Assembly: GCF_017643475.1 (NCBI RefSeq)
Contig: NZ_JAEPNI010000003.1
Span: forward strand, 186,001 to 250,000
Reading direction: 5' to 3'
DNA length: 64,000 bases
Source: Maricaulis sp.
GTDB taxonomy: Bacteria > Pseudomonadota > Alphaproteobacteria > Caulobacterales > Maricaulaceae
Each line of letters starts with the position of its first letter. Position 1 is the first letter of the stretch. Made by a program: the position numbers and the translations under genes. Positions 56,578 to 64,000 of this stretch are shown piece by piece. The notes beneath the pieces are model-generated. The model made no database searches. It was given only the letters and a program-made list of their open reading frames with translations, and had not been told where the DNA came from.

Positions 56578-57948
56578 ATGACCGGATTCTTCTTCAACGA
56601 AGCCCTGCTTCCTGGCGGCTGGGCGCGCAATGTGCGTGTGACCATGGACAAAAGCGGCCGTATCGAACGTTGCGAGATCGACACCTCCGCCCACGCAGGC
56701 GATATCCGGCACACCAACGCCCTGCCCGGCATGGCCAATCTGCACAGCCATGCCTTCCAGCGCGGCATGGCCGGACTTGCGGAACGGCGCGGCACGTCCG
56801 ATGACAGTTTCTGGACCTGGCGCGAGGTAATGTACGCCTTTAACGACCACCTCACCCCGGATGATGTGGAGGCGATCGCGGCGCTGGTTTATTGCGAGAT
56901 GCTGGAGAGCGGCTTCACCAGCGTGGGCGAGTTTCACTATCTGCACCATGACCGCGATGGATCACCCTTCGCCGATCTAGCGGAAATGGCCGGCCGGATC
57001 TGTGCGGCGGCCGAAACGACGGGCATCGCGCTGACCCTGTTGCCGGTATTTTATCGCTGGTCCGGGTTTGGCGATCAGCCCGCCCATGAGGGCCAGCGTC
57101 GCTTCTTCAATGATCCGGATCGTTACGCCCGTCTGAGCGATGCCAGCCTTGCCCACACCAGCAAGCTTCGCCATGGACGCCTGGGCGTCGCGCCACACAG
57201 CCTGCGCGCCGCCAATCTTGAGGATTTGCGCTGGCTGGCGGGCTTGCGTCCGGATGATCCGGTCCACATCCACATTGCCGAACAGCTCAGGGAAGTCGCT
57301 GAGTGCGAGGCCGCTCACGGCAAACGTCCTGTCCAGTTGCTGGCCGAGAGCGTGGAACTCGATCCGCGCTGGTGTCTTGTCCACGCCACGCATATCGACG
57401 CCGCTGAAACCCGCGACCTTGCCCGCTCCGGCGCGATTGCAGGCCTGTGCCCGCTGACCGAGGCCAATCTGGGCGACGGTGTTTTCCCTGCACCGGATTA
57501 TCGCGCCCAGGCGGGACAATGGGGCATTGGCTCGGACAGTCATATCCGCATCGATTTGGCGGAAGAGTTGCGCCTTTTGGAATACGGTCAACGCCTGACC
57601 TTGCGTCAGCGCAATGTGCTGGCCGAACCGGACCAGCATGTCGGCCGCGCGCTCTACCAGTCCTGCGCCACCGGCGGCGCCCAGGCGCTGGGCCAGCCCA
57701 CCGGCCGGATCGAAATCGGCGCGCGTGCAGATTTTGTCGTGCTGGACAGCAAGGCACCGGTGCTTGCCGGGCGGTCATCTGACACGCTGCTGGACAGCTG
57801 GCTGTTCAGCGGGGATGGACGTCAGGTCGAGACAGTCTATGTCGGTGGGGAGCGTGTTGTTGAAGCCGGGTCTTGCCTGGCTAGGGACATGATTTCCGGG
57901 CGTTATTGCGACCGCCTGACCCAGCTGATGCAGAGGATTAATGCGTGA
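56578..57948 (+). CDS. hutF: Formimidoylglutamate deiminase
   Basis: A 456-residue amidohydrolase that turns N-formimidoylglutamate into N-formylglutamate and ammonia. The metal site is LPGMANLHSHAFQRGMAGL (about residues 50-68), followed by HDRDGSPFADLAEMAG and GSDSHIRIDLAEELRLLEYG. This enzyme, rather than a direct formiminohydrolase, defines the branch that feeds HutG. It overlaps hutC by 4 bp (GTGA). Confidence 0.94.
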   Translation: MTGFFFNEALLPGGWARNVRVTMDKSGRIERCEIDTSAHAGDIRHTNALPGMANLHSHAFQRGMAGLAERRGTSDDSFWTWREVMYAFNDHLTPDDVEAIAALVYCEMLESGFTSVGEFHYLHHDRDGSPFADLAEMAGRICAAAETTGIALTLLPVFYRWSGFGDQPAHEGQRRFFNDPDRYARLSDASLAHTSKLRHGRLGVAPHSLRAANLEDLRWLAGLRPDDPVHIHIAEQLREVAECEAAHGKRPVQLLAESVELDPRWCLVHATHIDAAETRDLARSGAIAGLCPLTEANLGDGVFPAPDYRAQAGQWGIGSDSHIRIDLAEELRLLEYGQRLTLRQRNVLAEPDQHVGRALYQSCATGGAQALGQPTGRIEIGARADFVVLDSKAPVLAGRSSDTLLDSWLFSGDGRQVETVYVGGERVVEAGSCLARDMISGRYCDRLTQLMQRINA

Positions 57949-58688
57949 ACCGGCAGGACTGGCAGAGTGAAATCGGCCTGGATGGCGCAGGACCGGTCTA
58001 TGAACAGATCAAGCGTGCGCTGACTGAACGGATCCGCTCTGGCGGCTGGCAGACCGGCGATCGCATTCCCGGCGAGGAAGAGCTTGCCGAACATTTCAAT
58101 TCCGCCCGCATGACGGTCCACCGCGCCCTGCGGGAATTGACCGATACCGGTCTTCTCATCCGCAAGCGCCGCGCCGGCACTTTCGTGGCACCACCGCCGG
58201 CGCCCGCTGCGATGCTGGAAATCGTGGACATGTCCAAACTCATCCCGGCGCGGGGCCAGGACTATGCCTTCGAGATGATCGACAGTGCCGTCGTCGAAGC
58301 GAGTGAGGAATTGCGGCAGCGTTTCGATCTGCCTGACGGCGGGATGCTGCGACGGCTGATCTGTCTGCACCGCGCAGACGCTATCCCGCTGGAGCTGGAA
58401 GAACGCTGGATCAATCTCGCCGTGCTGCCCGACGCCCGGGACGCAGATTTCAGCCAGACCCCGCCAGGCGCCTGGCTGTTGCAACAAGCCCCGTGGACCC
58501 AGGCCGAGCACACTATTTCGGCCCGCAATGCCAGCGCCGCAACCGCCGATCGTCTCGATATCGATGCCGGAGATGCTTGCCTCGTGCTGGAACGCCGCAC
58601 CTTCCTGGATCAGCAGGTGGTCACCTTCGCCCGCCTGACCCACCCGGGCAGCCGGCACGCCCTGACCGAACGTTTTACACCGGGCTGA
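57945..58688 (+). CDS. hutC: Histidine utilization repressor (GntR family)
   Basis: A 247-residue HutC-type repressor. The winged helix (about residues 18-85) reads YEQIKRALTERIRSGGWQTG and MTVHRALRELTDTGLLIRKR. The C-terminal UTRA ligand-binding domain covers about 95-240, which in relatives binds urocanate. It starts with GTG inside a 4-bp overlap with hutF, so it is translated from the hutF transcript and would repress its own operon. A repeat fragment follows. Confidence 0.93.
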   Translation: MNRQDWQSEIGLDGAGPVYEQIKRALTERIRSGGWQTGDRIPGEEELAEHFNSARMTVHRALRELTDTGLLIRKRRAGTFVAPPPAPAAMLEIVDMSKLIPARGQDYAFEMIDSAVVEASEELRQRFDLPDGGMLRRLICLHRADAIPLELEERWINLAVLPDARDADFSQTPPGAWLLQQAPWTQAEHTISARNASAATADRLDIDAGDACLVLERRTFLDQQVVTFARLTHPGSRHALTERFTPG

Positions 58689-59194: not shown

Positions 59195-59818
59195 CTATTT
59201 GTTCTGGGCCCGGATGGCGTGGCGCTTGCGCAGCACCGCAACGACATCATCCAGGCTGAGATCACGGGATTCCAGCAGCACCATCAGGTGGAAAATCAGA
59301 TCCGCCGCCTCTCCTGCCAGTTCCGACTTGCCTTCGGATACGGCAGCCATGGCGACCTCGACGCCTTCCTCACCCACTTTCTGAGCCGGTTTCTTGGGCG
59401 CCTTGGCCAGCAAAGCCCCGACATAGCTGTCCTTGGGTTTTTCCTTGCGGCGTTTCTTGATGATCGCACGCAAATGCGCCAGGAAGCCCAGACCCGGTGC
59501 CGGGTCATCACCGAAACAGGTCACCGTACCCGTGTGACAAGCCGGTCCCTTGGGTTTGACCTCGACCAGCAGCGCGTCACCATCACAATCCGGGGCCATC
59601 TGGACCAGTTTGAACGTGTTTCCGGAGGTCTCGCCCTTTTTCCAGATACGTTGTTTGGTACGGCTGTAAAAATGCACCTTGCTGGTTTCCAGGGTCAGTT
59701 CGACCGCCTCTGCGTTCATGTAACCCAGCATGAGAACCTGGCGCGTGGCCACGTCCTGGATGATCGCCGGGATCAGGCCATCGACCTTTTCCCAGTTGAG
59801 ATTTTCAGCGTTGATCAT
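59195..59818 (-). CDS. hisIE: Bifunctional phosphoribosyl-AMP cyclohydrolase / phosphoribosyl-ATP pyrophosphatase
   Basis: A 207-residue fusion catalysing steps two and three of histidine synthesis. The HisI half (about residues 1-112) has the metal/active-site motifs [21 protein letters not shown] and [12 protein letters not shown]. The HisE half (about 113-207) has [18 protein letters not shown] and [20 protein letters not shown]. Many alphaproteobacteria carry separate hisI and hisE, so the fusion is noteworthy. ATGA overlap with hisF places it last in the operon. Confidence 0.93.
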
Positions 59819-60582
59819 GGCCGAATGCCCAATCCTTCATCAATCAAATAGGACTTCAGATTTCCTATATTAATCAGCCCCTTGTGAAAGACGCTGGCAG
59901 CCAGCGCGCCATCCACATTGGCCTGATTGAATACAGTTTTGAAGTGTTCTTTTCGGCCAGCCCCACCCGATGCAATCAGCGGTGTGGAACACAGCGCCCG
60001 CGCCTCGGCCAGCTGGTCGATATCATAACCATCGCGCACACCATCCTGGTCCATGCAGTTGAGCACGATTTCGCCGGCGCCCCGGTCGGCCACTTCGGTG
60101 ATCCAGTCGAGCGTTTTGCGATTGGCCTCCTGCGTCTTGTCAGGGTCGCCGGTGAACTGATGCACACGCCAGGCGCCGTCAATCTCACGACTGTCGATAC
60201 CCACCACCACGCATTGCGAGCCGAACTCCGCGGCCAACTTGTCGACCAGGGACGGGTTCTGGAGCGCAGGCGTGTTGATCGAGATCTTGTCCGCGCCTGC
60301 AAACAGGCGTGCCCGCGCATCATCGACAGACTTGATACCGCCAGCGACGCAAAACGGAATGTCGATCACACGTGCAACCGCACTGACCCAGGCCGGCTCG
60401 ACCGTCTCGCCACGCGTCGAAGCCGCAATGTCATAAAAGACCAGCTCGTCGGCCCCCTCTTGCGCATAACGCCGGGCCAGCTCGACGATATCCCCGACGA
60501 TCTCGTGATTGCGGAATTTCACGCCCTTGACGACCTGGCCGTCCTTGACGTCGAGACAGGGAATTATACGGCGCGCAAGCAC
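59815..60582 (-). CDS. hisF: Imidazole glycerol phosphate synthase cyclase subunit
   Basis: A 255-residue TIM-barrel enzyme that joins ammonia from HisH with PRFAR to make IGP and AICAR. The start [18 protein letters not shown] carries the first catalytic aspartate; [16 protein letters not shown] carries the second. ALIASGGAG-type phosphate loops are seen at [12 protein letters not shown]. It begins with GTG and overlaps the hisA end by 19 bp. Confidence 0.95.
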
Positions 60583-61298
60583 GACAGGGCCTCCTCGACG
60601 CTGAACCGGCCCTCATAGATCGCCCGGCCGGTAATCGCTCCGGCTGCACCCGCATCCCGCGCCGCTTCCAGATCGGACAGCGAGGACACGCCACCGGAGG
60701 CCTGCCAACTCACGTTTGGATATGTGCGCGCGAGGTATTGATAGAGCTCGATATTGGGTCCGGAAAGATCACCATCCCGCCCGATATCGGTCACCAGGGC
60801 GTGCTGCAGATCTGCGCCATCATAGGCCTTGATCACATCATCAAGGGTCACGGTGAGGACATCCGTCCAGCCCTTGATGGCCGGGCGATAGGCACCCCCG
60901 ACATATTGCACGTCAAAGGCCAGCGTCAGGCGGTCCGATCCGAAACGGTCCAGCCAGGGCAAAACCTGTTCCGGCGCCGAAATGGCGAGCGATCCGATCA
61001 CCACCCGCGAGACGCCCGCTTCAAAAAAGGCCTCGATATCCTCGCTGCCCCGCACCCCGCCACCGGACTGCACCTTGAGGCCGGTCGCCGCGATATCGCG
61101 GATCAAAGACGTCTGGCGACGGGCGCCGTCTCGAGCCCCGGCCAGGTCCACGACATGGATCCATTCCGCGCCCTCGGCCTTGAGCTGTTTGGCGACCTCG
61201 ACAGGATCAGTTGCGTATTCAGTGACCGCGTCGAACTTGCCGTGCATCAGGCGCACCACACGGTCTTCCAGTAGATCAATGGCAGGATAGAGGATCAT
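60564..61298 (-). CDS. hisA: ProFAR isomerase
   Basis: A 244-residue barrel enzyme isomerising ProFAR to PRFAR. It begins [20 protein letters not shown] with the catalytic aspartate in PAIDL and keeps the phosphate-binding [14 protein letters not shown], and second half [24 protein letters not shown] overlap with hisH upstream. Its length is standard. Confidence 0.95.
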
Positions 61299-61894
61299 CG
61301 GACCAGCTCCGCAAAATTCGTGAGAATGCGCGCGCCCGCCTCGCCCGACCGTTCCGGGTGAAACTGGCAGCCATAGACATGGCGCGATTTGACGATGGCG
61401 GTGATATCCGCGCCATACTCGGCTCGCGCCAGGGTGAAGGTGGAAGTCGGCACATAAAACCCGTGCACAAAATACATGTAGGCGCCATTCTCGACACCTG
61501 AGAGCAGGACGTTTTCCGGCTCGACAATGTCCAGCGAATTCCAGCCCATATGCGGCCAGACCAGGCCTTCGCTCGATGGCAGGCGCTCGACATGACCGGG
61601 GATAAGCCCCAGACAGGCAACATCGCTCTCGCTGGAGTATTCAAACAATAATTGCATCCCCAGACAGATGCCCAGCAAGGGACGTTCGTCGCGTCGCAAG
61701 GCAGCCGCCCAGCCAGAGGCTTCCAGCTGGTTCATCGCAGGCGCTGCGGCGCCTACGCCAGGCAGGATCAAACGACCACAGGCACCGGCCTGTCCCGGCG
61801 TCACCGCGACACGATAGTCGATCCCGGCCCGTTCGAGCGCGAACCGCACCGAGGCCAGATTGGCGCAACCGGTATCAATCAGCCCCACCGTCAT
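61295..61894 (-). CDS. hisH: Imidazole glycerol phosphate synthase glutamine amidotransferase subunit
   Basis: A 199-residue class-I glutaminase feeding ammonia to HisF. The catalytic triad is visible: cysteine in LGICLGMQLLFEYS, histidine and glutamate in GCQFHPERSGEAG. The oxyanion/tunnel loop reads YFVHGFYVP where many relatives have FVHSYY. ATGA overlaps on both sides place it between hisDB and hisA. Confidence 0.94.
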   Translation of the reverse strand: MTVGLIDTGCANLASVRFALERAGIDYRVAVTPGQAGACGRLILPGVGAAAPAMNQLEASGWAAALRRDERPLLGICLGMQLLFEYSSESDVACLGLIPGHVERLPSSEGLVWPHMGWNSLDIVEPENVLLSGVENGAYMYFVHGFYVPTSTFTLARAEYGADITAIVKSRHVYGCQFHPERSGEAGARILTNFAELVR

Positions 61895-63783
61895 GCCAGG
61901 TGCTCCTTGGTCGAAGGCAGGCGGTCTCCCTCGACACGCACAGCCTGGCGCAAGGCACGACCAAAGGCCTTGAAACAGCCTTCGATCATGTGGTGGGCAT
62001 TATCGCCCTCGACCTTCACATGCACGGCCGCCTTGAGACTTTCGGCGATGGAGCGAAACGCGTGCGCGGTCATCTCGACCGGGAATTCGCCGACACGATC
62101 GCCCAGGATCTCACCCTCGAATTTGGCATAGGGGCGCCCAGAAAGGTCAATCCAGACCCCTGCCCGCGTTTCATCCATCGGCAGCTCAAACCCGAAACGG
62201 GCTATGCCGCGCTTGTCGCCCAGGGCTTCCGCCAACGCCTCACCAAAGGTCAGGCAGACATCTTCGATTGTGTGATGCGCGTCGATCTCCAGATCGCCTT
62301 CCACATCAATGGACAGCGAAATACCGGCATGACGTGCGATCTGGTCCAGCATGTGATCGAAATAACCGACACCGGTGTCGATGCGATTTGGGCCGTCGCG
62401 ATCGAGATTGATCGACAGGGCAATATCCGTCTCCGCAGTCTTGCGGCGACGCGCAGCGGCACGCGGCCCCCTCTGCCCGGTCGCGGTCTCTTCCGAGGCC
62501 GTTTCGCGGCGCTTGGCCATCGCGATGCGGTGGGCGTCGAGGCCTTCGAGTGCGGCCAGGCGTTCCACGGTCGGTGCCAGATTACGAGCGCCTGCCTTGC
62601 TGGCGCGCAGGATCGTCGTGGTCTTCTGGAATGCTTCCACGGTTACGCCGCCATAGGCGCGCGCGGATCCACCGGTTGGCAGTGTGTGGTTGGGGCCCGC
62701 AGCATAGTCACCTGCTGCTTCCGGTGCCCAGCGCCCCACAAAGATTGATCCGGCGTGGCGAACCTTGTCGGCCAGTGTCTCAGGATTGGCTGTCTGGATA
62801 ATCAGGTGTTCGGCCGCATAGAGATTGGCGGCCTCGGCCATATCACCCTCATCGGGGCAGACCAGGCAGAGTGAGTTCTCCAGCGCAGCTCGTGCAATGT
62901 CAGCACGGGGCAGTGTGTCGAGTTGTGTTTCCACTTCCGCCATCACGGCCCGGGCCGTCGCCTCGGCATCTGCCAGCAGCACGACCTGGGCATTGGCATC
63001 GTGTTCAGCCTGGCTGAGCAGATCACTGGCCACAAAACCTGCATCCGCCGAGGTGTCCGCAGCCACCATCACCTCGCTGGGCCCGGCTGGCAGGTCCACA
63101 GCGGGACCGCCGGGCAAAGCAGTGACATAGGCCTTGGCCGCAGCCACATAGGCATTGCCTGGCCCAAAGATCTTGTCCGCCCGCGGGATATCGGCAACGC
63201 CGAACGCCAGGGCAGCAATGGCCTGGGCGCCTCCGACGGCATAGACCTCGTCTATGCCGATCAGTTTCGCAGCCGCGAGCAGAGCAGCATTGACGCCGTC
63301 ACTGCCGTTTGGCGGCGCGACGACGGCGATGCGTGGCACGCCGGCCAGCTGGGCCGGAATGGCGAGCATGATCAGGCTGGACACCAGGGGTGCACTGCCG
63401 GCGGGCACATAGAGCGCCGCAACGTCGACCGGCGTCGCGCGACGCGAGGCTTTCACGCCCGACCAGGTCTCGACTTCATAGGCGGAATAGCCCTGTTTCA
63501 CATGGAAACGACGCACGGCATCAGCGGCTGCCCTGATCGCTTCCTGGTCCGCCGGATCCATGGCCTCCAGCGCTGCGTCAAAAGCCGCCTCAGGCACGCG
63601 GAACTGTTCAGGCGCATGCCCGTCCAGTCGCGCTGCATAGGCGCGCAGCGCGGGCTCGCCCTGCGCGCGGATGGCATCAACAATATCGCGCGCGGCTCCG
63701 GCTGCCGCACCGGTTTCTTCCGGTCGGGCGAGAGCGGCAACGCGCTGATCCTGATCAAGGTCTGCCCAGTTGAGAGTTTTCAT
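61891..63783 (-). CDS. hisDB: Histidinol dehydrogenase-imidazoleglycerol-phosphate dehydratase fusion
   Basis: A single uninterrupted 630-codon frame joins two enzymes of the same pathway that act five steps apart. Residues 1-425 are HisD, which oxidises histidinol to histidine. Its zinc ligands Gln258, His261, Asp359 and His418 and catalytic Glu325-His326 are all present (LLSQAEHD, AAEHLII, AGDYAAGPNHTLPT, LDAHRIAM). A basic, alanine-rich linker (about 422-450) leads to HisB dehydratase (451-630) with metal-binding HHTIED (503-508), FDHML and DNAHHMIEG. The ATG at codon 422 (62520) could in principle give separate HisB, but no clear Shine-Dalgarno precedes it. ATGA overlap with hisH downstream; hisG ends 9 nt upstream. 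Confidence 0.93.
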   Translation of the reverse strand: MKTLNWADLDQDQRVAALARPEETGAAAGAARDIVDAIRAQGEPALRAYAARLDGHAPEQFRVPEAAFDAALEAMDPADQEAIRAAADAVRRFHVKQGYSAYEVETWSGVKASRRATPVDVAALYVPAGSAPLVSSLIMLAIPAQLAGVPRIAVVAPPNGSDGVNAALLAAAKLIGIDEVYAVGGAQAIAALAFGVADIPRADKIFGPGNAYVAAAKAYVTALPGGPAVDLPAGPSEVMVAADTSADAGFVASDLLSQAEHDANAQVVLLADAEATARAVMAEVETQLDTLPRADIARAALENSLCLVCPDEGDMAEAANLYAAEHLIIQTANPETLADKVRHAGSIFVGRWAPEAAGDYAAGPNHTLPTGGSARAYGGVTVEAFQKTTTILRASKAGARNLAPTVERLAALEGLDAHRIAMAKRRETASEETATGQRGPRAAARRRKTAETDIALSINLDRDGPNRIDTGVGYFDHMLDQIARHAGISLSIDVEGDLEIDAHHTIEDVCLTFGEALAEALGDKRGIARFGFELPMDETRAGVWIDLSGRPYAKFEGEILGDRVGEFPVEMTAHAFRSIAESLKAAVHVKVEGDNAHHMIEGCFKAFGRALRQAVRVEGDRLPSTKEHLA

Positions 63784-63792
63784 CTCGCGCCC

Positions 63793-64000
63793 CTAGGCCA
63801 GCATTTTTTCGATCGGAAGCACGAGGATGGCGCGCGCGCCTTCCGCTTCCAGGGCTTCAAGCGTCTCCCAGAAAACGCGCTCGCGACAAACCGCGTGCAG
63901 TGCGACGACATCGTCCCGGCCTGCGATCTGGGCGACGGTCGGCGCGTCAGACCCCGGCAACAGGGCCTTGATCGCATCGAGACGGTCCGTCGGCGCATTG
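63793..64000 (-). CDS. hisG: ATP phosphoribosyltransferase, C-terminal part
   Basis: The gene runs off the right edge; 68 C-terminal codons are visible. They read NAPTDRLDAIKALLPG, then TVAQIAGRDDVVALHAVC, and end ILVLPIEKMLA before TAG. The LPGSDAPTV and ILVLPIEKM motifs are those of the HisG C-terminal region. HisG joins ATP and PRPP in the first step of histidine synthesis and is feedback-inhibited by histidine. It is the first visible gene of the his operon. Confidence 0.88.
   Translation of the reverse strand, partial: NAPTDRLDAIKALLPGSDAPTVAQIAGRDDVVALHAVCRERVFWETLEALEAEGARAILVLPIEKMLA

Follow-up and report, generated by a model that had tools for sequence, protein, structure and literature searches.

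Among pathways shaped by gene fusions, histidine synthesis is the textbook example. In this pathway, imidazoleglycerol-phosphate dehydratase (HisB, or IGPD) catalyzes step 6, the aminotransferase HisC step 7, and histidinol dehydrogenase (HisD) steps 9-10. The window analyzed here, a stretch of 64,000 nucleotides from the genome of the marine bacterium Maricaulis sp., raises the question of whether HisD and HisB are made as one polypeptide, and if so, how such an arrangement arose and how its two halves could be assembled.

HisD and HisB encoded by a single gene

A single ATG-started ORF at 61891-63783 on the minus strand codes for 630 amino acids, which comprise HisD, a linker of approximately 15 residues, and HisB. 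It belongs to a compact cluster in the order hisG-[hisD-hisB]-hisH-hisA-hisF-hisIE, in which the neighbours were named by eye. The features are as follows.

61891..63783, minus strand: fused hisD-hisB, 630 amino acids, ATG at 63783, stop at 61891-61893
62509..63783, minus strand: HisD part, residues 1-425 (PF00815 at 26-425; TIGR00069; E. coli HisD 1k75)
62464..62508, minus strand: variable, Ala/Arg-rich linker, residues 426-440 (model pLDDT below 50 at 432-439)
61894..62463, minus strand: HisB part, residues 441-630 (PF00475 at 470-611; NF002111; IGPD structures)
63793..64000, minus strand: 3' end of the upstream gene hisG, by eye (full ORF in the genome 293 amino acids, L136:3794-4675)
61295..61894, minus strand: hisH, by eye; start codon shared in part with the stop of hisD-hisB (ATGA)
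60564..61298, minus strand: hisA, by eye
59815..60582, minus strand: hisF, by eye
59195..59818, minus strand: hisIE, by eye

Just past the his cluster, at 57945-58688 on the plus strand, there is an ORF resembling a HutC-type GntR/UTRA regulator (by eye).

The fused protein matched Pfam Histidinol_dh (PF00815) at residues 26-425 (E 1.5e-140, 469.3 bits against a cut-off of 27, profile positions 10-410 of 411) and IGPD (PF00475) at residues 470-611 (E 1.1e-55, 188.2 bits against a cut-off of 27, profile positions 1-144 of 144). Among the NCBIfam models, TIGR00069 (hisD) scored 472.1 bits against a cut-off of 243.8, as a full-length HisD does, and the HisB equivalog NF002111 scored 234.4 bits against 231; matches to the remaining HisB equivalog models stayed under their own cut-offs. 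In addition, the HisD part aligned with the E. coli HisD structure 1k75 (E 3e-100) and the HisB part with IGPD structures, including plant IGPD (E down to 2.9e-45). A profile search of the whole genome (G000; 3.26 Mb, 99.99% complete) gave one PF00815 match and one PF00475 match, both in the same 633-codon frame, which has no internal stops, and no second hisD or hisB copy was detected elsewhere in the 3.26 Mb. The HisD-HisB fusion in Maricaulis is confirmed to be real. A preliminary description made from the window had claimed an in-frame fusion of 630 residues with an Ala/Arg-rich linker, and both Pfam domains were indeed found in one chain; 19/19 genomes of the genus carry the fusion.

The zinc and catalytic residues that the same description had placed in both halves are present as well. 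Aligned to 1k75, the HisD part carries Q258, H261, E325, H326, D359, and H418, which we take, from the E. coli numbering, to be the Zn ligands and the catalytic Glu and His. Aligned to plant IGPD, the HisB part carries H477, H503, H504, E507, H574, H597, H598, and E601, the His/Glu set of a two-Mn site, and this set fits the ligand pattern in the excerpts of PMC10978614; the Zn ligands of plant HisD are given in the excerpts of PMC5585171. All these residues are identical in 39/39 aligned fused proteins from three groups, except for Q258 and H261 (38/39), where the one gap is presumably due to the contig-truncated L021.

The fusion as a trait of the genus and the nature of its linker

The sample consisted of 61 genomes, namely the window's own and 60 relatives. 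The fusion was present in one open frame in all 19 Maricaulis genomes; it was complete in 18 and cut by a contig end in G012, and in two genomes (G009 and G015) it lay within a single contig. Among the 18 other genomes of the family, G034 had no match, and HisD and HisB were fused in none of the 17 with a match.

The junction between fixed anchors was 32-34 residues long in 19/19 Maricaulis genomes. In eight close Maricaulis pairs, the linker was the least conserved part, with a pN/pS of 0.35 compared with 0.10 for HisD and 0.03 for HisB. The linker differences at codon positions 1, 2, and 3 numbered 30, 24, and 69, respectively, and no in-frame stop was found in the linker of the 19 Maricaulis genomes. 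From the pN/pS value, the codon-position bias, and the absence of stops, we conclude that the linker appears to be translated and to evolve as protein under purifying selection.

A quick HisD tree placed the Maricaulis genome L020 outside the rest; a single clade was not rejected (AU p 0.276), and the HisB tree kept Maricaulis together with a support of 92. The contig-truncated L021 and L194, whose hisD frame contains stops, were omitted from the trees.

HisB of the relatives behind HisC or a shortened N-terminal half

The 17 unfused family genomes encode a separate HisD, and its stop is directly followed by a composite gene with HisB as the C-terminal half. In 37 of 38 loci, the composite has its first in-frame start no more than 13 nucleotides away from the stop of HisD; starts more than approximately 25 nucleotides before that stop were outside the count. 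The N-terminal half was full length (355-370 residues) in 10 of the 17, with a HisC match over the hisC equivalog cut-off in a frame of 551-594 codons; in the L120 composite, for example, Aminotran_1_2 (E 3.9e-47) and IGPD (E 6.6e-58) were found in one chain. In the other 7 of 17, including Woodsholea (L118 and L039), it was reduced to 187-230 residues. HisC-HisB is widespread among the relatives of Maricaulis (L119-L128, L132, and rows of the order survey). Among the matches listed in that survey of 299 genomes, at least 29 rows span HisC-HisB from residue 28 or earlier to 544/545, and at least three further rows start at residues 37-52, two of which are copies from genus g31 that lack the lysine binding pyridoxal phosphate (PLP). 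Loci in which HisB was not found (L186, L191-L193, L195, and L212) were left out of the composite counts.

Pfam and NCBIfam searches with the remnants of L039 and L113 gave nothing significant. For a profile of 15 remnants of approximately 200 residues against a profile of full and decayed HisC, hhalign gave a probability of 92, an E-value of 6.7e-7, and a score of 53, with a collinear match over 134 columns. The best score from 200 column shuffles was 22.5, the reversed profile scored 19.0, and a HisD control scored 18.5. Parts of the HisC profile gave weaker matches: with only the full-length HisC sequences the probability was 34.6 (E 4e-4); against g31 HisC the probability was 78.8 (E 1.7e-5), and against that of family f3 alone it was 30.6. 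The remnant thus seems to derive from HisC, the link being a remote one. HisN was also considered as a source of the remnant and was rejected, as L039 and L113 contain no phosphatase domain and the profile match is to HisC. A single-sequence AlphaFold model of the Woodsholea remnant had a mean pLDDT of 53.5 and was too poor for use.

Decay was also seen in HisC modules that are still recognizable. The PLP lysine is kept in 11/11 full-length HisC sequences and lost in 12/12 decayed ones (three from family f3 and nine from genus g31), while HisC is still clearly recognized in the decayed f3 and g31 groups (E 4e-36 and 2.6e-42, respectively). The shrunken modules without this lysine in L130, L131, L133, L182-L185, L187-L190, and L194 may be pseudoenzymes retained as extensions at the N-terminus of HisB. 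In the HisD tree, the remnant-bearing genus G021 (L129) is placed with the f3/f4/f5 clade and not with the sisters of Maricaulis, a position which suggests that the shrinkage of HisC happened more than once. In L211, from a genome (G694) assigned to another family of the class, HisD and the remnant-HisB nest with those of the family of Maricaulis; this may reflect a transfer or a misplaced genome.

A second, distant HisC gene over the hisC cut-off was detected in 17/19 Maricaulis genomes and in 7/7 remnant genera. Ten sampled separate HisC sequences are united in one clade (support 100) to the exclusion of eleven that are fused, and G020 and G024 possess both kinds. Overall, HisC over the cut-off was found in 58 of the 61 genomes, the exceptions being G054, just under the cut-off, and Maricaulis G006 and G007 (90% and 69% complete).

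The reading frames demonstrate that the closest relatives have a second gene starting at the end of HisD or only a few bases from it, and that the predicted product of this gene has HisB as its C-terminal half, together with a full-length or shrunken HisC.

HisD-HisB fusions in other lineages

Among the matches listed for the order sample, the full fusion occurs in at least 22 of 299 genomes, which are 12 Maricaulis and 10 members of genus g31 in family f4. Thirty g31 genomes were sampled, and 18 of the 20 not fully fused were searched again. Among the matches listed, three more g31 genomes (G579, G559, and G537) have fused junctions that are incomplete or broken; ten have a decayed HisC before HisB, nine of them reading through and G555 in part; G593 and G607 have HisD only; and four are without a match. 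The fused g31 species do not carry the decayed HisC that the unfused g31 species keep. G449 has a different gene pair, lying apart: its HisD and HisB (L195 and L209) are on different contigs and its HisB is more distant, so that the locus may have been replaced. Broken hisD frames were seen in G537 (L196 and L208) and G522 (L194), and these are either draft errors or real decay.

A single fusion origin shared by Maricaulis and g31 was rejected by the AU test (p 5.85e-42 for HisD and 4.3e-4 for HisB). As judged from the gene trees, g31 gained HisD-HisB independently.

A third group belongs to the class of G062, a Bacteroidota bacterium, the sample of which also holds G061 (Rhodothermales). At least 19 of 195 genomes there have a nearly full-length fusion, in addition to two partial ones, and at least 9 of 296 in the phylum sample of G062 are fused among the matches listed. 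In a HisD tree with outgroups, ten fusions of this class join two unfused genomes of that phylum (support 96). On the other hand, among the matches listed for the window's own class (289 genomes) and phylum (329), there was no further full fusion except the window's own; since these listings are ordered by score, a full fusion would be expected among their first entries. G914 comes close to a full fusion but has a stop inside.

The viral contig collection contained no match to the fused protein. Of 391 matching plasmid records, 13 had one place covering at least 80% of the query. By annotation, on which the reading of the plasmids is based, the genes are separate in nine of the 13; an aminotransferase gene is listed for three of these nine, and HisB is annotated as phosphatase-dehydratase in one. 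The other four show no features.

Both domains are predicted in one chain in all 19 Maricaulis genomes and in at least two further groups. Neither these further groups nor the existing fusion of the relatives' HisB to HisC, as read from their genes, was visible to the preliminary description, which was made without relatives.

One chain, two products, or an artefact

The preliminary description had considered initiation at Met422. Free HisB would then be made beside the full-length product, from this codon or from a GTG or TTG in the linker, and would ease the assembly of the 24-mer; an in-frame ATG stands at the Met422 position in 18/19 Maricaulis genomes. However, none of six tested Shine-Dalgarno-like motifs was found at normal spacing in the 18 ATG-bearing genomes, L008, L010, and L015 having one only at −19/−18, and L011 has Ile at this position, with no ATG, GTG, or TTG among the 28 codons that precede its HisB core. 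One genome (L004) has a GTG in the linker preceded by a motif at −15/−14, which is not shared. Moreover, Met422 lies within a predicted helix (416-434) closing the HisD part, and the same Met belongs to the C-terminal stretch of HisD in unfused relatives such as L113. The proposed start thus found little support, and the production of free HisB is quite improbable. It is also improbable that the whole chain is made and its linker then cut by a protease into HisD and HisB. The linker shows the lowest conservation of the three parts, is poorly ordered in the AlphaFold model of the fused protein (mean pLDDT 78.6, from an alignment of only six sequences), and has a conserved basic RRKT after it. 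Nevertheless, a similar basic motif, RRTTKETD, precedes HisB in the unfused L113 and is hence not specific to the fusion, the linker still appears to be under purifying selection, and we know of no protease for such a cleavage.

The preliminary description had also named a sequencing error hiding a stop or frameshift at the junction. Although one draft relative (G537) does have a broken hisD frame, sequencing error is excluded because all 19 Maricaulis genomes are fused, two of them within a single contig, and the probability of an assembly or sequencing artefact is negligible. Horizontal transfer of a ready-made fusion, as opposed to its formation in the Maricaulis lineage, could be imagined from the presence of this architecture both in g31 and in the G062 class. 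It is very unlikely, however: HisD and HisB of Maricaulis group with remnant-HisB genera that are nearly all of its own family (support 100 and 97, respectively), and the AU test rejected the joining of Maricaulis with the g31 fusions for both proteins.

Proposed origin and assembly of the fused protein

We consider it very probable that Maricaulis makes one polypeptide with both enzymes, that this arose from a HisC-HisB precursor with a decayed HisC through a deletion joining HisD, and that HisB forms a 24-mer core with HisD outside. An independent HisC gene elsewhere would have taken over the aminotransferase step, and the redundant HisC module in HisC-HisB would then have decayed. In the ancestor of Maricaulis, a deletion may have removed the HisC remnant together with the HisD stop, so that the tail of HisD became joined in frame to a short segment before HisB. 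Since HisD would have been joined to HisB by this deletion, HisB would never have passed through a free stage. It seems that one N-terminal partner of HisB was exchanged for another in Maricaulis. A living series is preserved, from full-length HisC-HisB through HisC-HisB without the PLP lysine and the remnant of approximately 200 residues to HisD-HisB.

In the putative assembly, up to 24 HisD domains would be carried on flexible linkers outside a 24-mer HisB core of 432 symmetry, and they would form dimers either on the same core or across different cores, with the ratio of the two enzymes fixed at 1:1. According to the excerpts of PMC10978614, the N-terminal sheet of the plant IGPD 24-mer is external; HisD would therefore hang outside, as HisN must in HisN-HisB. 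The geometry problem that the preliminary description saw in joining a HisD dimer to a HisB 24-mer is weaker than had been stated, because a partner at the N-terminus can be accommodated on the outer side of the shell. The excerpts of PMC5585171 describe plant HisD as a dimer with the C-terminal domain IV swapped onto its mate; the tether would then leave from an interface region, which speaks against the proposed assembly.

Direct channelling is unlikely as the reason for the fusion because HisD and HisB catalyze non-neighbouring steps; candidate reasons are a fixed ratio of the two enzymes or the absence of a separate start for HisB. We give even chances to a broader account. In it, the formation of HisC-HisB left HisB of these bacteria without a start of its own and thereby confined to the C-terminal side of a fusion. 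A HisC module that had become redundant could then only decay in frame, as a dead aminotransferase serving as a tether, until HisD took its place through deletions; this would have occurred two or more times within the order and once more beyond it. The resulting chains would build a large assembly of a new sort, in which HisD dimers decorate or cross-link a shell of HisB, with the tether and not channelling being selected. Natural matched pairs, such as fused and unfused g31 species, allow it to be asked what a fusion is for when the enzymes are non-consecutive, and the system offers a tractable test of the capacity of a 24-mer to bear an obligate dimer in 24 copies.

Comparison with known fusions

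HisN-HisB (E. coli hisB, PRK05446) likewise has HisB C-terminal behind another histidine enzyme, but the partner is a phosphatase, whereas that in Maricaulis is HisD. PRK05446 gave the lowest E-value among the matching HisB models (3e-81, in the HisB part); its match covers only positions 163-353 of the profile, with 273.2 bits against a cut-off of 443. Pfam gave only HisD and IGPD in the fused protein, without an N-terminal histidinol-phosphate phosphatase domain, and the protein is not of the HisN-HisB type. In the fungal HIS4 (HisI-HisE-HisD), HisD is also fused to other histidine enzymes, according to the excerpts of PMC1963479. There, HisD is C-terminal behind HisI-HisE, whereas in Maricaulis it is N-terminal and its partner is HisB; with a HisD match starting at residue 26 and no HisI or HisE domain before it in Pfam, the protein is not of the HIS4 type either. 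The HisC-HisB of the relatives shares the C-terminal place of HisB and the operon position directly after hisD, and is likely to be the precursor, but its partner is a full or decayed HisC and HisD is a separate protein.

The preliminary description had called the HisD-HisB arrangement unfamiliar, and we found no description of a HisD-HisB or HisC-HisB fusion in the excerpts of the open-access main texts searched. Fusions of the hisNB, hisIE, HIS4, and HIS7 types are named in the excerpts of PMC1963479, PMC8305728, PMC7284861, PMC10138114, PMC11237513, and PMC10978614, and the excerpts of PMC7284861 and PMC10138114 list seven his genes as fusion participants, hisC not being among them. Text hits to the terms themselves were hisD-hisB in PMC3828012 and hisC-hisB in PMC6432763. 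Annotation databases may already carry such proteins under a two-part name.
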